Assembly (NCBI GenBank): GCA_031178625.1 | Contig: JAPSIR010000003.1 | Location: forward strand, 6,424 to 45,471 | Length of the DNA stretch: 39,048 bases | Origin: Cellulomonas sp. | GTDB taxonomy: Bacteria; Actinomycetota; Actinomycetes; Actinomycetales; Cellulomonadaceae | Direction of reading: 5' to 3' | Part shown: one piece after another, positions 1,025-23,772 of the stretch | Layout of the letters: every line of letters begins with the position of its first letter | Numbering within the stretch: the first letter of the stretch is position 1 | Position numbers and translations under genes: made by a program | Notes under the pieces: model-generated | Seen by the model: the letters and a program-made list of their open reading frames with translations, nothing else | What the model was told of the DNA's origin: nothing | Database searches by the model: none

Positions 1025-2512
1025 ATGTCGCAGGTGGGGGGACGTGCCCGGCGCGGACCGCGGCGGGCGGCCGCGGTGCACGTGGTCGTGGCGCTGCTGG
1101 CGCTCGGCGCCGTGGTGGGGGACGGCGGCAGGGCCGACGCGGCGCAACCGGCCGGTCCGGCGGCGGTCGCTCGCGCGGCGGTCGTGGACTGCGGGGCTGC
1201 CCCGATGGTGGCGCTCCGCCCCGCCGAGGGCCCGGCTGCCGGCGGCACCCGCGTGCTGCTGACGGGTCCGCGGGTGGGCACCGCCACCGCGGTGCGCTTC
1301 GACGGCGTGCGCGCCACGGGTCTGCGACGGATGGGTCCGGGGGCGCTGTCGGTCGTCTCGCCGGCGCGCGAACCGGGGTCCGTCGACGTGACCGTGGCGC
1401 TCCCCGGCCGGGACCCGGCGCCGGCCACGTACACCTACGTCGGCGACGGTCCGGGTGTCGTCGTCGACGTCATCGCACCCGACACCCTCCCGACGTCCGG
1501 CGGCCCGGTCGCCGTCGACGGCGCGGGCCTCCGCGGCGTGCTCGACGTGACGGTCGGCGGGCTGCCGGTGTCCGACCTGGTCGTCACCGATGCCCGCGTG
1601 TCGTTCACGGCCCCGGCGGTCGAGGGGGAGGGCGGCGCTCCCGTCGTCCTCGTCCTCGCCGACGGTGAGCTGGACGCGGGCGTGCTCGTGTACGTCGCGC
1701 CGCGCGTCGACGCGCTGACGCCGGCGGCGGGCGGCACGGCCGGCGGCGACGTCGTCACGATCACCGGCTCCGGCCTCGCCACGGCGACGGGCGTCGACGT
1801 CGGCGGGACGGTCGTCGCGGTCGACCGCACGAACCCGGACGGCACGACGGTGGAGCTGCGCACACCCGCGCACGCGCCGGGCGTCGTCGACGTCACCGTC
1901 CTGCTCGACGGGTCCGACGCGACCCTCGCCGGCGCCTACACGTACGACGACGACGGCGGCGGCGGCGGCGACGGGGACGGCGTCGTCACCGCGGTCACCC
2001 CCGCGCTGGGCCCGGCCGCGGGCGGCACCTACGTGACGCTGACGGGCACGGGCCTGGCCGACGTGACCGACGTGACCTTCGGCGGCACGTCCGCGGTGGT
2101 GCTCGACGTGGCCGCGGACGGTTCCTCGGTCGTGGTGGAGGCGCCGCTCGGCATGCCCGGCACGGTCGACCTCGTCGTGGTCCTGCCCGGCCCCGACGTC
2201 GTGCTGCCGGACGCCTACACGTACGTCCCGGACGGCACGGGCACCGCGGTCACGGGCCTCGCGCCCGCCACGCTGCCGACCTCCGGCGGCACGATCACCG
2301 TCACGGGCAGCGGGTTGCACGGCGCGACGGGCGTCACCGTGGGCGGCGTCGCGGCCACCGACGTGCGCGTCGCCGCCGACGGCACGTCGGTCACCGCCAC
2401 CGTCGCCCCCGTCGCCGGACCGGGGCGCGCGCGCGTCACCGTCTGGTTCCCCGCCGGCACCATCCCCGCCGGCGAGGTCGAGCTCGTCGCGGGCGGCGGC
2501 ACCGACGGGTGA
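1025..2512 (+). CDS. Secreted IPT/TIG repeat protein
   Basis: 495 residues. An Arg-rich N-region and hydrophobic core (about 13-40, ending GRADAA) form a signal peptide. The rest is five tandem immunoglobulin-like IPT/TIG domains, roughly 60-138, 143-225, 229-308, 322-400 and 404-485. Each opens with a 'P..GP.AGGT.V.LTG.GL' type strand and most close with a Tyr-x-Tyr (YTYV, YTYD) strand. A Gly/Asp linker (DDDGGGGGDGDG, about 310-321) separates repeats three and four. There is no LPXTG motif, membrane anchor or catalytic module. ATG 1025 has GGAGGG about six bases upstream. The protein is probably an exported adhesive or scaffolding protein at the cell surface; no partner can be named. It converges on the beta-helix gene pair. 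Confidence 0.85.
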   Translation: MSQVGGRARRGPRRAAAVHVVVALLALGAVVGDGGRADAAQPAGPAAVARAAVVDCGAAPMVALRPAEGPAAGGTRVLLTGPRVGTATAVRFDGVRATGLRRMGPGALSVVSPAREPGSVDVTVALPGRDPAPATYTYVGDGPGVVVDVIAPDTLPTSGGPVAVDGAGLRGVLDVTVGGLPVSDLVVTDARVSFTAPAVEGEGGAPVVLVLADGELDAGVLVYVAPRVDALTPAAGGTAGGDVVTITGSGLATATGVDVGGTVVAVDRTNPDGTTVELRTPAHAPGVVDVTVLLDGSDATLAGAYTYDDDGGGGGDGDGVVTAVTPALGPAAGGTYVTLTGTGLADVTDVTFGGTSAVVLDVAADGSSVVVEAPLGMPGTVDLVVVLPGPDVVLPDAYTYVPDGTGTAVTGLAPATLPTSGGTITVTGSGLHGATGVTVGGVAATDVRVAADGTSVTATVAPVAGPGRARVTVWFPAGTIPAGEVELVAGGGTDG

Positions 2513-2600: not shown

Positions 2601-3521
2601 TCACGCGCACTGGCCCGTGCGCGCACCACCTACCGTCGTCGTCGCCGGGTCGACCAGCACGGGGACGGCGTTGCCGGCGCAGGCCAGGTCCCCCACCACG
2701 TCCGCGTGCTCGACCTCCACGCGGCCCACGTTGCGCTCGAGCGTGAGCGAGCCGTACCGGCTCTGCCGCTGCTGCCCGTCGTCGATCCAGTACCAGGGAC
2801 CGTCGGACCGGCGCAGGCCGCCGAGGACCACCCGCCCGTACGCGTCGCGCACGGTGACGGCGCCGCCCACGGCGGTCTCGGCCAGCACCACACCCGTCGG
2901 CGACGACGACGTGAGCGGCCCGTCGACGACCGTCTCTGCGAGGGTCACCGCGCCGCCGCGCGTCGTGACGGCGCCGCGCACGTGCGCCTCCCGCAGCTGC
3001 AGCCCGCCGTCCTCGTCCCGCGGGTCCGCGCCCGGCAGGTAGCCCGGACCCCGGTCCCACAGCCCTAGGCGCACGTCGATGCTCCCGACGTCCGCCGACG
3101 ACCAGAGCGTCCCCGTCGTCCCGCGCACGCGCCCGGCCACCCGGCCGCTGAGAAGCACCTCGTTGGCGCGCACGAGCAGCACGTCGCCGCCGACCGTGAC
3201 GTCGGTGAGCTCCACGATCGCGTCGCGCACGACCACGTCGCCGTCGACGCGCACGTCCGACAGCTCGGGCCAGTCACCGCCGAACTCCGGTGGCGGCGCC
3301 GTCACGTGCACGTCGCCCTGCACGTGCACGCCCGACAGGCCGCACCCGTCGAGCAGGACGTCGCCCGGGTAGGTCGTGCGGGTGCGGAACTCCTCCCACG
3401 TCTCGGCCGTGCAGACGAACACGCCGGGGTCGGACGCGGCGGCGGGTACCACCGCGACCCCTCCCAGCACCGCCGCCGCGGTCCCCAGCACCCCGACCAC
3501 CCGTCGTCCGTGCATGCTCAC
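2601..3521 (-). CDS. Secreted beta-helix-like protein, four-cysteine type (copy B)
   Basis: 306 residues from GTG 3521 (GAGGGG five bases upstream; ATG 3515 is an alternative). A signal peptide covers about 1-29 (hydrophobic, ending VVPAAAS). The mature protein is built of short beta repeats of the form V.GDV.V or VGGDVLLV, like bactofilin and other polymer-forming parallel beta-helices. Cys37 and Cys60 flank the N-terminal cap; another pair 24 residues apart closes the C-terminus, which ends TVGGARTGQCA. The gene 40 bp upstream encodes a paralogue with the same plan, so the two are probably co-transcribed. I do not recognise a named family. A disulfide-capped extracellular beta-solenoid is inferred; no catalytic motif is seen. 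Confidence 0.8.
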   Translation of the reverse strand: MSMHGRRVVGVLGTAAAVLGGVAVVPAAASDPGVFVCTAETWEEFRTRTTYPGDVLLDGCGLSGVHVQGDVHVTAPPPEFGGDWPELSDVRVDGDVVVRDAIVELTDVTVGGDVLLVRANEVLLSGRVAGRVRGTTGTLWSSADVGSIDVRLGLWDRGPGYLPGADPRDEDGGLQLREAHVRGAVTTRGGAVTLAETVVDGPLTSSSPTGVVLAETAVGGAVTVRDAYGRVVLGGLRRSDGPWYWIDDGQQRQSRYGSLTLERNVGRVEVEHADVVGDLACAGNAVPVLVDPATTTVGGARTGQCA

Positions 3522-3561
3522 GTCGCCCCCTCGCGTCGTCGTGTCGGCCCGTCTCGTGGTG

Positions 3562-4440
3562 TCAGCCCGCGCACCGGCCGGTGCGGGCGCCGCCGACGGT
3601 CACGTCGGTCAGCCGCGGCGTCACGGCGCCGCCCGTGCAGCCGACGTCGCCGGCCACGTCCGTCGCGCCGACGACCACGCGCGACGCGTTGTCGTGCAGG
3701 AGCAGGTCGCCGCCGACCGTCGTCCGCCGCGCCGGCGGCCCCTCGACCCAGCCGCCGCCGGTCCAGCGCAGGTGCCCGACGTCGACGCGCTGGTGCCCGC
3801 GCCGGACCGTGAGGTCCGCCGCGACGTCGGCCTCGGAGACGACCGACGACCACACCCACGACAGCGTGAGCCCGCGCCGCAGCGTCACGTCGGCGACGTG
3901 CGTCGCGCCGCCGTGCACGTTGACCCAGCCGCCGACGTCCGCCCGCCACAGGGTCAGGCCGCGCGTGCGCACGGCCTGCGGGACCGCGACGTTGATCGCG
4001 CCGCGCACGGTGCCGCTGATGAGCGCGCGGTCCGTCTTGCCGCGGACGCTGCGACCGACCTCGCCGACGACCCGCACGTCGGCGGCACGGTCGAGCTGCA
4101 CGCCGCCGGCGACGACCACGTCGTCGAGGTCCGCCTCCGCCCCGGCACCCACGACGACGTCGCCGTCCACCTGCGTCGCCGTCACCCGGGCGACGGCACC
4201 GTCCGCCACGAGCACGTCACCGAGCACGTGCGCCTCGAGCAGCCAGCAGCCGTCACCCTCGACGACGACGTCGCCGGGCACGGTGACGCCGTCGAGCCAG
4301 TCGTCCGGCCCGCACGTCCACGCCGTGGGCGGCGCCGCGGCCGCGGCCGGTGCGACCGCCCCCGGTGCGACCGTCCCCACGGCGGTCGCCGCCGCCACGG
4401 CCGCCAGCAGCGCGGTCCTCGTCGTCCTGCTCCGTCGCAT
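3562..4440 (-). CDS. Secreted beta-helix-like protein, four-cysteine type (copy A)
   Basis: 292 residues from ATG 4440, preceded by a G-rich Shine-Dalgarno. The open frame extends to 4554, but the upstream part encodes Arg-rich sequence unlike a signal peptide, whereas MRRSRTTRTALLAAVAAATA is a normal one. The mature part starts near residue 36. Short valine-rich strands recur (PGDVVVEG, LGDVLVAD, DGDVVVGAG, GGDLLLHD), as in right-handed beta-helices. Cys43 and Cys65 lie at the N-terminus and a second pair 22 residues apart at the C-terminus, ending TVGGARTGRCAG. That ending is nearly identical to the downstream paralogue, so this is a tandem duplication. Function unknown; a secreted structural or adhesive protein is the cautious reading. 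Confidence 0.8.
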   Translation of the reverse strand: MRRSRTTRTALLAAVAAATAVGTVAPGAVAPAAAAAPPTAWTCGPDDWLDGVTVPGDVVVEGDGCWLLEAHVLGDVLVADGAVARVTATQVDGDVVVGAGAEADLDDVVVAGGVQLDRAADVRVVGEVGRSVRGKTDRALISGTVRGAINVAVPQAVRTRGLTLWRADVGGWVNVHGGATHVADVTLRRGLTLSWVWSSVVSEADVAADLTVRRGHQRVDVGHLRWTGGGWVEGPPARRTTVGGDLLLHDNASRVVVGATDVAGDVGCTGGAVTPRLTDVTVGGARTGRCAG

Positions 4441-22362: not shown

Positions 22363-23772
22363 GTGATGCGACGACGACCCACCCACCGCACGAGGGCTCG
22401 CGCCCTCGTCACGGCCGCAGCGGCGGCCCTCGTCGCCGGCCTCGTCGGCACGGCGACGGCACCACCGGCGCAGGCCGCCCCCGCCCCGGTCGTGTCCGCG
22501 CAGTCGGGGCGCTGCCTCGACGTCGCGGGCAACGACGCGACCGCGGGCGCCGCGATCCAGATCTGGGACTGCAACGGCGTCGCCGGCCAGGGCTGGGAGC
22601 TGACGGCCGCCGGCGAGCTGCGCACGTTCACCGGCACCCGCTGCCTCGACGCGCTGAACTGGGGCACCTCCCCGGGCACGGCGCTCATCTCGTGGAGCTG
22701 CACCGGCGGCGCCAACCAGCGGTTCGCGCGCGGGGCGAACGGCAGCCTCGTGCACCAGCAGTCCGGCCTGTGCGTCGACGTCAGCAACGGGCGCACCGCG
22801 AACGGCACCGCCGTCGCGCTGTGGACCTGCAACGGCCGCGACAACCAGCGCTGGACCATCGGCACCGCCGGCGGCGGCGACGGCGGCACGCCGCCCGCGG
22901 CGTACCCCGGCCCGGGCGTCGTCACCGGCGCGACCTGGGCGCACGACCCCACCGTCGTCAAGCGTCCCGACGGCTCGTACCTCGTCGCGACGACGGGGCG
23001 CGGCATCCCGCTCAAGACGTCGCGCGACCGCACGGCGTGGTCCGACGCGGGCGCCGCGTTCCCCAACGGCACGCCGTGGACGTCCGCGCACACCACCGGC
23101 GACCTGTGGGCGCCCGACCTGTCGTACCGCGACGGGCAGTACTGGCTGTACTACTCGGCGTCGTCGTTCGGCAGCCGCAACTCGGGCATCTACCTGGCGA
23201 CCAGCCCCTCCGGGAACGCCGGCACGTGGACGAACCGCGGCCTCGTCGTCAGCACCACGGAGGCCAGCGACCACAACGCGATCGACTCCGACCTCGTCAC
23301 CGACGCGCAGGGCCGGCTGTGGATGAGCTACGGCTCGTTCTGGACCGGCATCAAGATGATCGAGATCGACCCCGCGACCGGTCTGCGCCGGGGCAGCGCG
23401 ATCCACTCGCTCGCGACCCGCAGCGCCGGCATCGAGGCGCCCGACATCCTGTACCGCGACGGCTACTACTACCTGTTCGTGTCGTTCGACCGCTGCTGCC
23501 AGGGCGCCGACAGCACGTACCGGATCGCGGTCGGCCGCTCGACGAGCGTCACAGGCCCGTACGTCGACCGTGCCGGCACGCGCATGACGAGCGGCGGCGG
23601 CACGGAGATCCTCGCCGGCCGCGGGTCCGTGAACGGCCCCGGGCACAGCGCCACGCTGCGGGACACCGACGGCGACGTGCTCTTCTACCACTGGTACACC
23701 GACGCCGGGGACGCCCGCCTCGGCATCAACCTGCTGGGCTGGGACTCCGCCGGCTGGCCGTACGTCAGGTGA
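22363..23772 (+). CDS. Secreted arabinan endo-1,5-alpha-L-arabinosidase (CBM13-GH43)
   Basis: 469 residues from GTG 22363 (ATG 22366 is an equal alternative; GAAGG at 22350-22354). Signal peptide 1-38, cleavage after AQA. A ricin-type CBM13 lectin module (about 43-166) has three subdomains ending in QGW, NQRF and NQRW. A Gly-rich linker (about 168-178) leads to a GH43 five-blade propeller. Catalytic residues: base Asp195 (AHDPTVV), pKa modulator Asp308 (NAIDSD), acid Glu359 (GIEAPD); His428 (PGHSA) is the usual metal-site histidine. SFDRCCQG is typical of endo-arabinanases. It should cut alpha-1,5-arabinan outside the cell. The lectin at the N-terminus is less usual than at the C-terminus. 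Two operator classes precede it. Confidence 0.93.
   Translation: MMRRRPTHRTRARALVTAAAAALVAGLVGTATAPPAQAAPAPVVSAQSGRCLDVAGNDATAGAAIQIWDCNGVAGQGWELTAAGELRTFTGTRCLDALNWGTSPGTALISWSCTGGANQRFARGANGSLVHQQSGLCVDVSNGRTANGTAVALWTCNGRDNQRWTIGTAGGGDGGTPPAAYPGPGVVTGATWAHDPTVVKRPDGSYLVATTGRGIPLKTSRDRTAWSDAGAAFPNGTPWTSAHTTGDLWAPDLSYRDGQYWLYYSASSFGSRNSGIYLATSPSGNAGTWTNRGLVVSTTEASDHNAIDSDLVTDAQGRLWMSYGSFWTGIKMIEIDPATGLRRGSAIHSLATRSAGIEAPDILYRDGYYYLFVSFDRCCQGADSTYRIAVGRSTSVTGPYVDRAGTRMTSGGGTEILAGRGSVNGPGHSATLRDTDGDVLFYHWYTDAGDARLGINLLGWDSAGWPYVR

Follow-up and report, generated by a model that had tools for sequence, protein, structure and literature searches.

Conserved cysteine pairs towards either end of two tandem predicted beta-helix proteins from Cellulomonas

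Two neighbouring genes of a Cellulomonas sp., here called W1 and W2, encode proteins that are predicted to fold into right-handed parallel beta-helices and that carry a conserved pair of cysteines towards either end. They lie, with a TIG-repeat gene on one side and an MFS transporter gene on the other, in a window of 39,048 nucleotides (the whole stretch of DNA that was analysed), and the window's own genome has seven domains of the same type. We give an even chance to the reading in which both proteins are exported, non-enzymatic rods with disulfide-closed ends and a binding or spacing role outside the cell. The features on which the argument turns are these:

2601..3515, minus strand: W1, downstream member of the tandem pair; 304 aa, predicted beta-helix, signal-like N-terminus
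3432..3515, minus strand: W1, signal-peptide-like N-terminus, residues 1-28, to AAAS (read by eye)
3342..3413, minus strand: W1, N-terminal pair Cys35-Cys58 (N-cap)
2793..2882, minus strand: W1, site of the relatives' middle pair, Ala212 and Trp241 replacing two cysteines
2607..2681, minus strand: W1, C-terminal pair Cys279-Cys303 (C-cap, ...TVGGARTGQCA)
3562..4440, minus strand: W2, upstream member of the tandem pair; 292 aa, predicted beta-helix, signal-like N-terminus
4330..4440, minus strand: W2, signal-peptide-like N-terminus, residues 1-37, to AAAP (read by eye)
4246..4314, minus strand: W2, N-terminal pair Cys43-Cys65
3919..3933, minus strand: W2, GGWVN motif
3748..3837, minus strand: W2, site of the relatives' middle pair, Ser202 and Trp231 replacing two cysteines
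3571..3639, minus strand: W2, C-terminal pair Cys268-Cys290

Read from the ATG codons at 3515 and 4440, the two genes translate into 304 and 292 residues. For W1 an in-frame GTG at 3521 is a possible alternative start (306 residues), and the numbering Cys37/Cys60 in a preliminary description of this DNA differs from ours because it was counted from that GTG. Chance or a false reading frame was rejected as an explanation for either gene: G+C by codon position is 0.79/0.56/0.94 in W1 and 0.80/0.58/0.97 in W2, with the high values at third positions, and the family recurs elsewhere. The preliminary description had presented W1 and W2 as adjacent paralogues with signal peptides, and both points stand: BLASTP aligns them at 38% identity over 279 columns (E 9e-26), and a signal-like N-terminus can be read by eye in each, which suggests that both are exported. 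Its further claim that the middle sections in particular had diverged does not hold up, identity in the middle (38%, 113 columns) being not clearly lower than in the N-cap (42%, 36 columns) or the C part (41%, 96 columns). What does distinguish the middle sections is an insertion in W1 and the absence from W1 of the GGWVN of W2. Among 14 close domains, 9 have this motif, possibly an exposed binding site, and a tenth has GGWLN.

AlphaFold2, given four-row alignments, returned confident beta-helices for both W1 (pLDDT 87.5, pTM 0.86) and W2 (pLDDT 93.6, pTM 0.90), as the preliminary description had anticipated. The ends of the W2 model are less certain, with block means of 80 and 71. When the models were compared with known structures, Foldseek brought up nothing from the PDB at E 0.001, its TM-scores were low, and a structural search of BFVD likewise gave no match at E 0.001. 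VIA-align, whose lists are a re-alignment of Foldseek's own weak matches, placed pertactin first for W2 (2iou, Z 20.4, rmsd 2.7, 228 of 256 residues), with tailspikes and AlgG at Z 19-20, and the Dettilon tailspike first for W1 (6f7k, Z 18.6, rmsd 2.8, 228 of 276 residues). Taken with the models, these near whole-length alignments at Z 20.4 and 18.6 argue that W1 and W2 are right-handed parallel beta-helices, albeit predicted ones. Pectate-lyase-like beta-helices more broadly (pertactin, phage tailspikes, AlgG, PL6 lyases) align over nearly the whole length as well (top Z 18-20, rmsd 2.6-3.4), yet no sequence relation to them was found, and W1 and W2 differ from them in having conserved cysteine pairs at the ends.

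Each protein has four cysteines and no others, at residues 35, 58, 279 and 303 in W1 (spacings 23 and 24) and at 43, 65, 268 and 290 in W2 (22 and 22). The layout is the same in both, as had been noted, and so is the ending TVGGARTG(Q/R)CA, which reads TVGGARTGQCA in W1 and TVGGARTGRCAG in W2. We examined this frame in 83 aligned domains that scored at least 50 bits, weaker matches and the duplicate L084 being excluded. The N pair is complete in 80 of the 83 and the C pair in 55, counts in which both pairs are favoured because the profile that gathered the rows was built solely from domains possessing them. A further pair, lying between these two, is complete in 70; both of its cysteines are absent in 12, and a contig end truncates the remaining row. 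From 28 rows (one of them contig-cut) the C pair is wholly missing, and in no row is it present by half. In intact rows, then, middle and C-terminal pairs are kept or missing as wholes, and the residues that stand in for a pair are Ala, Ser or Thr with Trp (7 cases), Ala with Asp or Ala with Ala (5), Gly with Phe (16) or mixed (11). On a tree that also left out L051, the contig-cut copy of L017 and L064, a row that begins within the domain, the middle pair changed at least four times and the C pair at least three, so that the pattern reflects few tree events (4 and 3, respectively). Both cysteines of a pair are thus gained or lost together, and their replacements are paired too, a pattern in keeping with cysteines that may be bonded to each other and may hold the end coils in W1 and W2. 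Two rows show peculiarities of their own: L051, retained among the 83, looks frameshifted at both ends and probably accounts for the minimum C1-C2 spacing of 10, and the missing first N cysteine of L074 is an alignment artefact, its ORF having Cys116 and Cys142.

An independent check is provided by a profile of the C-terminal part, which excludes the N-terminal pair. Of 296 genomes sampled from the actinobacterial phylum it has matches in 20, the window's own included, and at 18 of the 21 loci so found a cysteine pair 18-23 residues apart lies upstream, compared with 4.46 expected from shuffles. A nineteenth locus (L128) also has such a pair, Cys 47/69, outside the script's window. Since the frame recurs in the 83 aligned domains and in 18 of 21 independently found loci, it is not a product of chance. 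When loci that are cut or have one end pair missing are set aside (L137, L140, L141), no inner cysteine is present in 13 of the 18 phylum-level loci that remain, and the length between the end pairs ranges from 90 to 196 residues. The four-cysteine frame of the preliminary description is therefore real and wide, with the refinement that in many of the nearer relatives a middle pair joins it: all six cysteines are present in 45 of the 83 nearer domains, a predominance not seen among the phylum-level loci.

How might such a protein work? Each would form a beta-helix of about a dozen coils, exported and non-enzymatic, closed at either end by a disulfide that joins residues separated by about one coil. 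Many relatives would be stapled a third time, closer to the C-terminus, at a site occupied in W1 and W2 by Ala or Ser together with Trp. Because the ends are constant and the intervening stretch is variable, we read the unit as a rod that is stable outside the cell and whose faces would serve for binding or spacing there. Among Cellulomonas-type bacteria such rods would most likely belong to the plant-polysaccharide-degrading secretome, where W1 and W2 may be non-catalytic binding or adhesion proteins multiplied by duplication. A surface location draws support from the surface domains to which some relatives are fused and from the WxL-like C-terminus of a related group, and the biomass setting from the excess of CBM2 genes around family loci in four genomes, all described below. 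The earlier proposal of an extracellular capped beta-solenoid gains ground as regards the predicted solenoid, the conserved end pairs and the apparent export, the last judged by eye from the N-termini.

Bacterial solenoids of this kind would be natural examples of apparent covalent caps, and in the W1/W2 family one kind of end closes off stretches that differ widely in length. According to passages of PMC13288671, designed solenoids fail chiefly for lack of terminal caps, and capping by disulfides had no earlier description. The same passages deal with fungal ice-nucleating proteins, beta-solenoids with conserved cysteines near both ends whose fold is reportedly destabilised by reduction; W1 and W2 share the conserved cysteines at both solenoid ends and differ from these proteins in the latter's fungal origin and long repeat domain. 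The main text of that paper contains no occurrence of Actino-, Streptomyces or Cellulomonas. A broader reading, which we put forward tentatively and would not back at even stakes, is that two constant disulfide caps and a variable number of coils make up an actinobacteria-wide module, an extracellular rod cut to length, used alone or fused to wall-binding or enzyme domains, multiplied in Cellulomonas-type cellulose degraders as plant-cell-wall binding rods, and a bacterial counterpart of the capping reported for fungal ice nucleators in 2026.

The suggestion that W1 and W2 may represent a new family agrees with the profile libraries scanned. Pfam scans with a limit of E 10 (above 0.1 most matches are lost to HMMER's filters) gave no fitting family for either protein, and neither did NCBIfam, where one irrelevant match appeared at E 0.17; no paper on the family was apparent from titles and abstracts among the literature matches listed. 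An apparently exported domain in about one in 15 of the sampled actinobacterial genomes is hardly covered by the Pfam and NCBIfam libraries scanned. The best E is 1.2e-24 or better in 12 of 36 genomes with candidate members; from the other 24, five loci were fetched, all showing the N pair alone (four loci were read and two scanned for WxL). Copy counts in the 36 genomes are lower bounds on candidates, 12 having been scored per genome, and include some domains that were matched in two pieces. The family does have tandem copies, as well as proteins with two domains. In one family search, two of five genomes yielded short weak matches alone (E 3e-4 and 5e-4).

Could W1 and W2 instead be passive spacers or stalks, which bind nothing and lift or protect other domains? 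We consider this unlikely, albeit deserving of serious attention, given that relatives' modules occur in multidomain proteins with Ig-like, M64, ParBc_2, SLH and CWB2 domains. Among 20 relatives scanned outside the family, a further Pfam domain scores above cut-off in 8 (SLH, CW_binding_2 twice, RTX repeats, Big_3_5 twice, Peptidase_M64 and ParBc_2). The Pfam scan of W1 and W2, by contrast, brought up no additional domain and both proteins end at the C-cap, so that as stalks they would have nothing to lift.

Bactofilins have Val/Gly/Asp-rich short-strand repeats that form a right-handed beta-helix, and they polymerise by end-to-end stacking. W1 and W2, with similar repeats and helix, might by analogy be self-assembling structural proteins that form filaments or a surface coat outside the cell, and the existence of tandem copies and two-domain proteins would suit such a role. 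The likeness noted in the preliminary description extends to the type of fold; it does not extend to the Pfam profile (PF04519), no match to which is listed for W1 or W2, one distant relative (L120) scoring below cut-off at 21.4 versus 27.9 bits. Bactofilins are cytoplasmic, whereas W1 and W2 have cysteine pairs and N-termini that look signal-like by eye. The best Foldseek and VIA-align rows contain no bactofilin structure, although one may rank further down. Membership of the bactofilins is not supported at the sequence level, and bonded end caps would hinder end-to-end stacking. We judge assembly of this kind improbable.

A still-catalytic polysaccharide enzyme (a lyase, hydrolase or epimerase of the pectate-lyase-like superfamily) would account for structural lists full of AlgG, AlgE, PL6 lyases, polygalacturonases and inulin lyases, and for the position of family genes near CBM2 genes in three of four tested genomes. 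In these four, which were picked for copy number, a CBM2 gene lies within 5 kb of 9 of 23 loci where 1.89 would be expected (p 5e-5, the lowest value that 20,000 draws allow, with random positions rather than other secreted genes as the control). The excess at 1 kb is not significant (2 of 23, p 0.12), and in G051 none of four loci is within 3 kb of a CBM2 gene. Keep in mind that G102 entered with just its six contigs that have loci, and that it has at least one orthologous locus in common with G107. A shared beta-helix, however, says nothing about function, and neither enzyme families nor, by sequence, PDB enzymes match W1 or W2. If the family were catalytic, we would also look for conserved catalytic residues, and none were seen: over 80 rows, positions conserved at 70% or more are all Cys, Gly, Val or Leu, bar one Asp, one Thr and two Asn, with no cluster of conserved acids, Lys, Arg or His. 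W1 and W2 are thus probably non-catalytic, and an enzymatic role seems to us decidedly improbable. Should the CBM2 link hold, the rods would be an extra non-catalytic component in the secretome of Cellulomonas-type biomass degraders.

An ice-binding or ice-associated role, for which one might cite the disulfide-capped solenoids described in passages of PMC13288671 and a Ca-dependent antifreeze beta-helix in the structural list (3p4g, Z 18.0), is very improbable, no Thr-x-Thr ladder being visible by eye in W1 or W2. A tapirin-type cellulose adhesin was considered and rejected: tapirin chains are listed (6n2b at rank 3, E 0.2; 6n2c, Z 15.1), many other beta-helices rank as high, and no paper came up in a literature search on tapirins, cellulose and the beta-helix.

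Weaker likenesses appear among the relatives. Four of ten at phylum level show some repeat likeness to the Hap/PIC/IgA0 autotransporter beta-solenoid (PF24078; E 2.4e-5 to 0.031), and profile A1 matches 3syj, of the same type, at E 0.02; all PF24078 matches are below cut-offs, and the W1/W2 family differs in its conserved cysteine pairs. One relative (L134) lies just above the cut-off for the DUF4097 'toastrack' (PF13349; 24.4 versus 22.9 bits), a match listed neither for W1 or W2 nor for the other nine proteins scanned. In a related group of solenoids the C-terminus is WxL-like (L080 and L083, the latter at 21.1 versus 25 bits), and one scanned locus of that group has a WxLIP-like neighbour (L085); these matches are under the curated cut-offs, and no WxL domain is listed for W1 or W2.

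A mobile or phage origin was likewise rejected: a pattern search of viral contigs and a search of plasmids found no W2 relative, the short module was absent from the phages searched, and neither W1 nor W2 matched PHROGs at E 0.1. In the plasmid set the short module is matched once, in a Nonomuraea record that, at 11.85 Mb, is chromosome-sized.

Finally, we compared neighbouring genes across 40 loci (323 genes, called by a crude gene caller that missed W2 itself). No partner gene common to family loci was found among the clusters listed, and the idea of a conserved operon partner was dropped. One larger cluster comprises 11 secreted-looking genes from 5 genomes, of which the two scanned carry CBM2, one with a rhamnogalacturonan lyase and one with a GH5 cellulase. 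A four-gene cluster from 4 genomes looks like antisense ORFs over the solenoids. Other clusters contain WxL-group neighbours and, in 3 genomes, four dehydrogenase genes; the remainder are small, many of them between near-identical loci.

The two genes lie in tandem on the minus strand:

4440 to 3562, minus strand: W2 gene, first of the tandem pair, encoding 292 residues (from translation)
3515 to 2601, minus strand: W1 gene, second of the pair, after W2, encoding 304 residues (from translation)

The two proteins are paralogues (38% identity, E 9e-26). Each translation contains exactly four cysteines in the layout that the preliminary description had given, the last of them being the final residue or standing one or two residues short of the end. 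Read by eye, both N-termini look like signal peptides, with a basic stretch followed by a hydrophobic, Ala-rich segment. The preliminary description had also likened the repeats to those of bactofilins; by sequence, W1 and W2 are not bactofilins, given that a Pfam scan with a limit of E 10 lists no family for either protein. An NCBIfam scan returned a single irrelevant match, to W2 (E 0.17), and a phmmer search of W1 against PDB sequences likewise gave one irrelevant match (E 0.23). The surrounding genes encode an ABC-2 transporter, an MFS transporter and a TIG-repeat protein; the last (window 1025-2509) has four TIG-repeat stretches (PF01833, E 3e-42) and converges on W1.

Structure prediction bore out the proposed beta-helix for both proteins. 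AlphaFold2, run on four sequences in each case, gave pLDDT 93.6 and pTM 0.90 for W2, and pLDDT 87.5 and pTM 0.86 for W1, where the low stretch is 126-139. By eye, the strand repeat has a period of mostly 17-20 residues. A Foldseek search of the PDB yielded low TM-scores and no chain at E 0.001. When Foldseek's own hits were re-aligned with VIA-align, W2 matched parallel beta-helices over nearly its whole length, with pertactin at Z 20.4 and further matches to tailspikes, AlgG and polysaccharide lyases; W1 likewise matched parallel beta-helices (top Z 18.6). Since the matched proteins (pertactin, tailspikes, AlgG, lyases) are right-handed, we take the modelled fold of W1 and W2 to be, very probably, a right-handed parallel beta-helix.

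How might the cysteines be arranged on such a helix? In an alignment of 83 domains from this and neighbouring families there are six cysteine columns, forming an N-terminal pair about 21 residues apart, a middle pair about 28 apart and a C-terminal pair about 23 apart; all six cysteines are present in 45 rows. The N-terminal pair is complete in 80 of 83 rows and the C-terminal pair in 55, high counts that arise partly by construction because every domain that went into the gathering profile had both end pairs. In the remaining 28 rows the C-terminal pair is absent on both sides (one of these rows is cut). For the middle pair, both cysteines are present in 70 rows and both missing in 12, and a contig end cuts the one other row. 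No intact row carries half a middle or half a C-terminal pair. Replacements, too, come in twos: the middle pair gives way to Ala, Ser or Thr with Trp in seven rows of the close group, which includes W1 and W2, and to Ala with Asp or Ala in five WxL-type rows, while the C-terminal pair is replaced by Gly with Phe in 16 rows and by mixed residues in 11. On a tree built with the cysteine columns left out, the minimum number of changes is four for the middle pair and three for the C-terminal pair. These events are few, yet the pattern is what bonded pairs would give. We therefore infer cysteine contact, and W1 and W2 probably carry disulfide caps at the helix ends. Beta-helices are a well-known kind of fold on which end caps are usual. 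Disulfide capping is presented as previously undescribed in a 2026 paper on fungal ice nucleators (PMC13288671).

The family is distributed patchily and has expanded locally. The window's genome, a draft of 374 contigs that is 79% complete, holds seven domain copies: W1, W2, four on contig C5 and one on contig C199. The four C5 domains sit in three genes, one of which encodes two domains joined by a Pro-rich linker. A comparable array occurs in G051, from the same genus: five genes there encode six domains, one of the genes being a similar two-domain one. In both two-domain proteins (L013:1804-3762 and L016:8284-10371) the linker is short, and the middle cysteine pair is absent from the first domain and present in the second. 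One G051 copy (L051:4011-5678) has apparent frameshifts near both ends and may be a pseudogene or reflect an error in sequencing. A single-sequence search (E 0.001) matched 5 of 81 genomes of the genus, two of them by short weak matches only; a profile search (E 1e-5) matched 36 of 221 genomes of the family, 12 with a best E of 1.2e-24 or better. Profile matches number at least 11 in G102, at least 10 in G051 and at least seven each in G029, G049 and G107, where 12 candidates were scored per genome and some matches are two pieces of one domain.

At E 1e-10 profile A1 matched 35 of 396 genomes of the order and 5 of 396 of the phylum, the window's own included in both. In two of these five phylum genomes, larger proteins terminate in a short form that has all six cysteines within about 140 residues. 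A profile from these two short forms (E 1e-12) matched 7 of 296 phylum genomes, including the window's own through W1 (E 6e-13). The search of actinobacterial genomes that the preliminary description had suggested reached further with a profile covering the C-terminal part that is shared: at E 1e-5 it matched 20 of 296 phylum genomes, the window's among them, and these belong to 19 genera. This profile contains no N-terminal pair; among 21 loci examined, from 19 genomes, a cysteine pair 18-23 residues apart nevertheless lies upstream in 18, against 4.46 expected from shuffles. A nineteenth upstream pair is in L128; L140 is cut by a contig end and L141 is without a pair. The exact four-cysteine frame recurs here, 13 of the 18 loci with both end pairs having no cysteine between them. 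The distance from the second cysteine of the N-terminal pair to the first of the C-terminal pair is 188-229 residues in 54 aligned domains and 90-196 in the 18 loci (90-133 in 16 of them). Constant ends with varied lengths between are read as different numbers of coils.

Eight of 20 scanned relatives outside the family carry another Pfam domain above cut-off: ParBc_2, Big_3_5 (two), Peptidase_M64, SLH, RTX repeats and CW_binding_2 (two). The ParBc_2 protein is a putative ParB-like nuclease (L119:1495-3177, E 2e-40; same gene as in L114 and L129) with the short module at its end. The solenoid module itself is hardly covered by Pfam, with sub-threshold matches to Bactofilin (L120), DUF5649 (L088) and PF24078 (four proteins), and a DUF4097 match of L134 just over threshold as the sole one above. 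A related group within the family has a WxL-like C-terminus (L083 E 3e-4, L080 0.03, both under cut-off), and in L085 the adjoining gene is WxLIP-like, also under cut-off. Besides the WxLIP-like gene scanned in L085, the WxL-type loci (L080-L083, L085) have two more neighbours in common: a large protein that combines GSDH, PKD, Ig-like and CBM6 domains (L082 scanned) and a xylose-isomerase-like TIM barrel (L083 scanned).

Neighbour comparison found no partner gene common to solenoid loci, except that secreted genes recur, two of them confirmed with the cellulose-binding domain CBM2. Four genomes chosen for copy number (G102, G107, G049, G051; G029, which resembles G049, and the draft G000 were left out) contain 108 CBM2 places. 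Compared with random positions (for G102 only on its six contigs with loci), and keeping in mind that G102 and G107, a close pair in the tree, have at least one orthologous locus in common, the solenoid loci near CBM2 number 2 of 23 within 1 kb (0.59 expected, p 0.12), 5 within 2 kb (0.91, p 0.002), 8 within 3 kb (1.25, p 5e-5), 9 within 5 kb (1.89, p 5e-5) and 10 within 10 kb (3.35, p 0.001), p 5e-5 being the lowest value that 20,000 draws can give. Within the window, an ORF at 22363-23772 has a translation that, by eye, starts like a secreted ricin-B-type lectin protein.

Conserved positions are of the scaffold type (Cys, Gly, Val, Leu and one Gly-Asp turn). W1 and W2 may be non-catalytic rods, shut at both ends, with their long faces exposed outside the cell; in Cellulomonas-type bacteria the likeliest job would be to bind plant polymers or the cell surface, or to act as a scaffold there. 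We offer a putative role in binding or adhesion only tentatively. Literature searches listed no published account of this actinobacterial solenoid family among their matches. Among the close domains, the motif GGWVN is present in W2 and 8 of 13 others, with GGWLN in one more; neither W1 nor the C199 copy has it, nor does the first domain of either two-domain protein.
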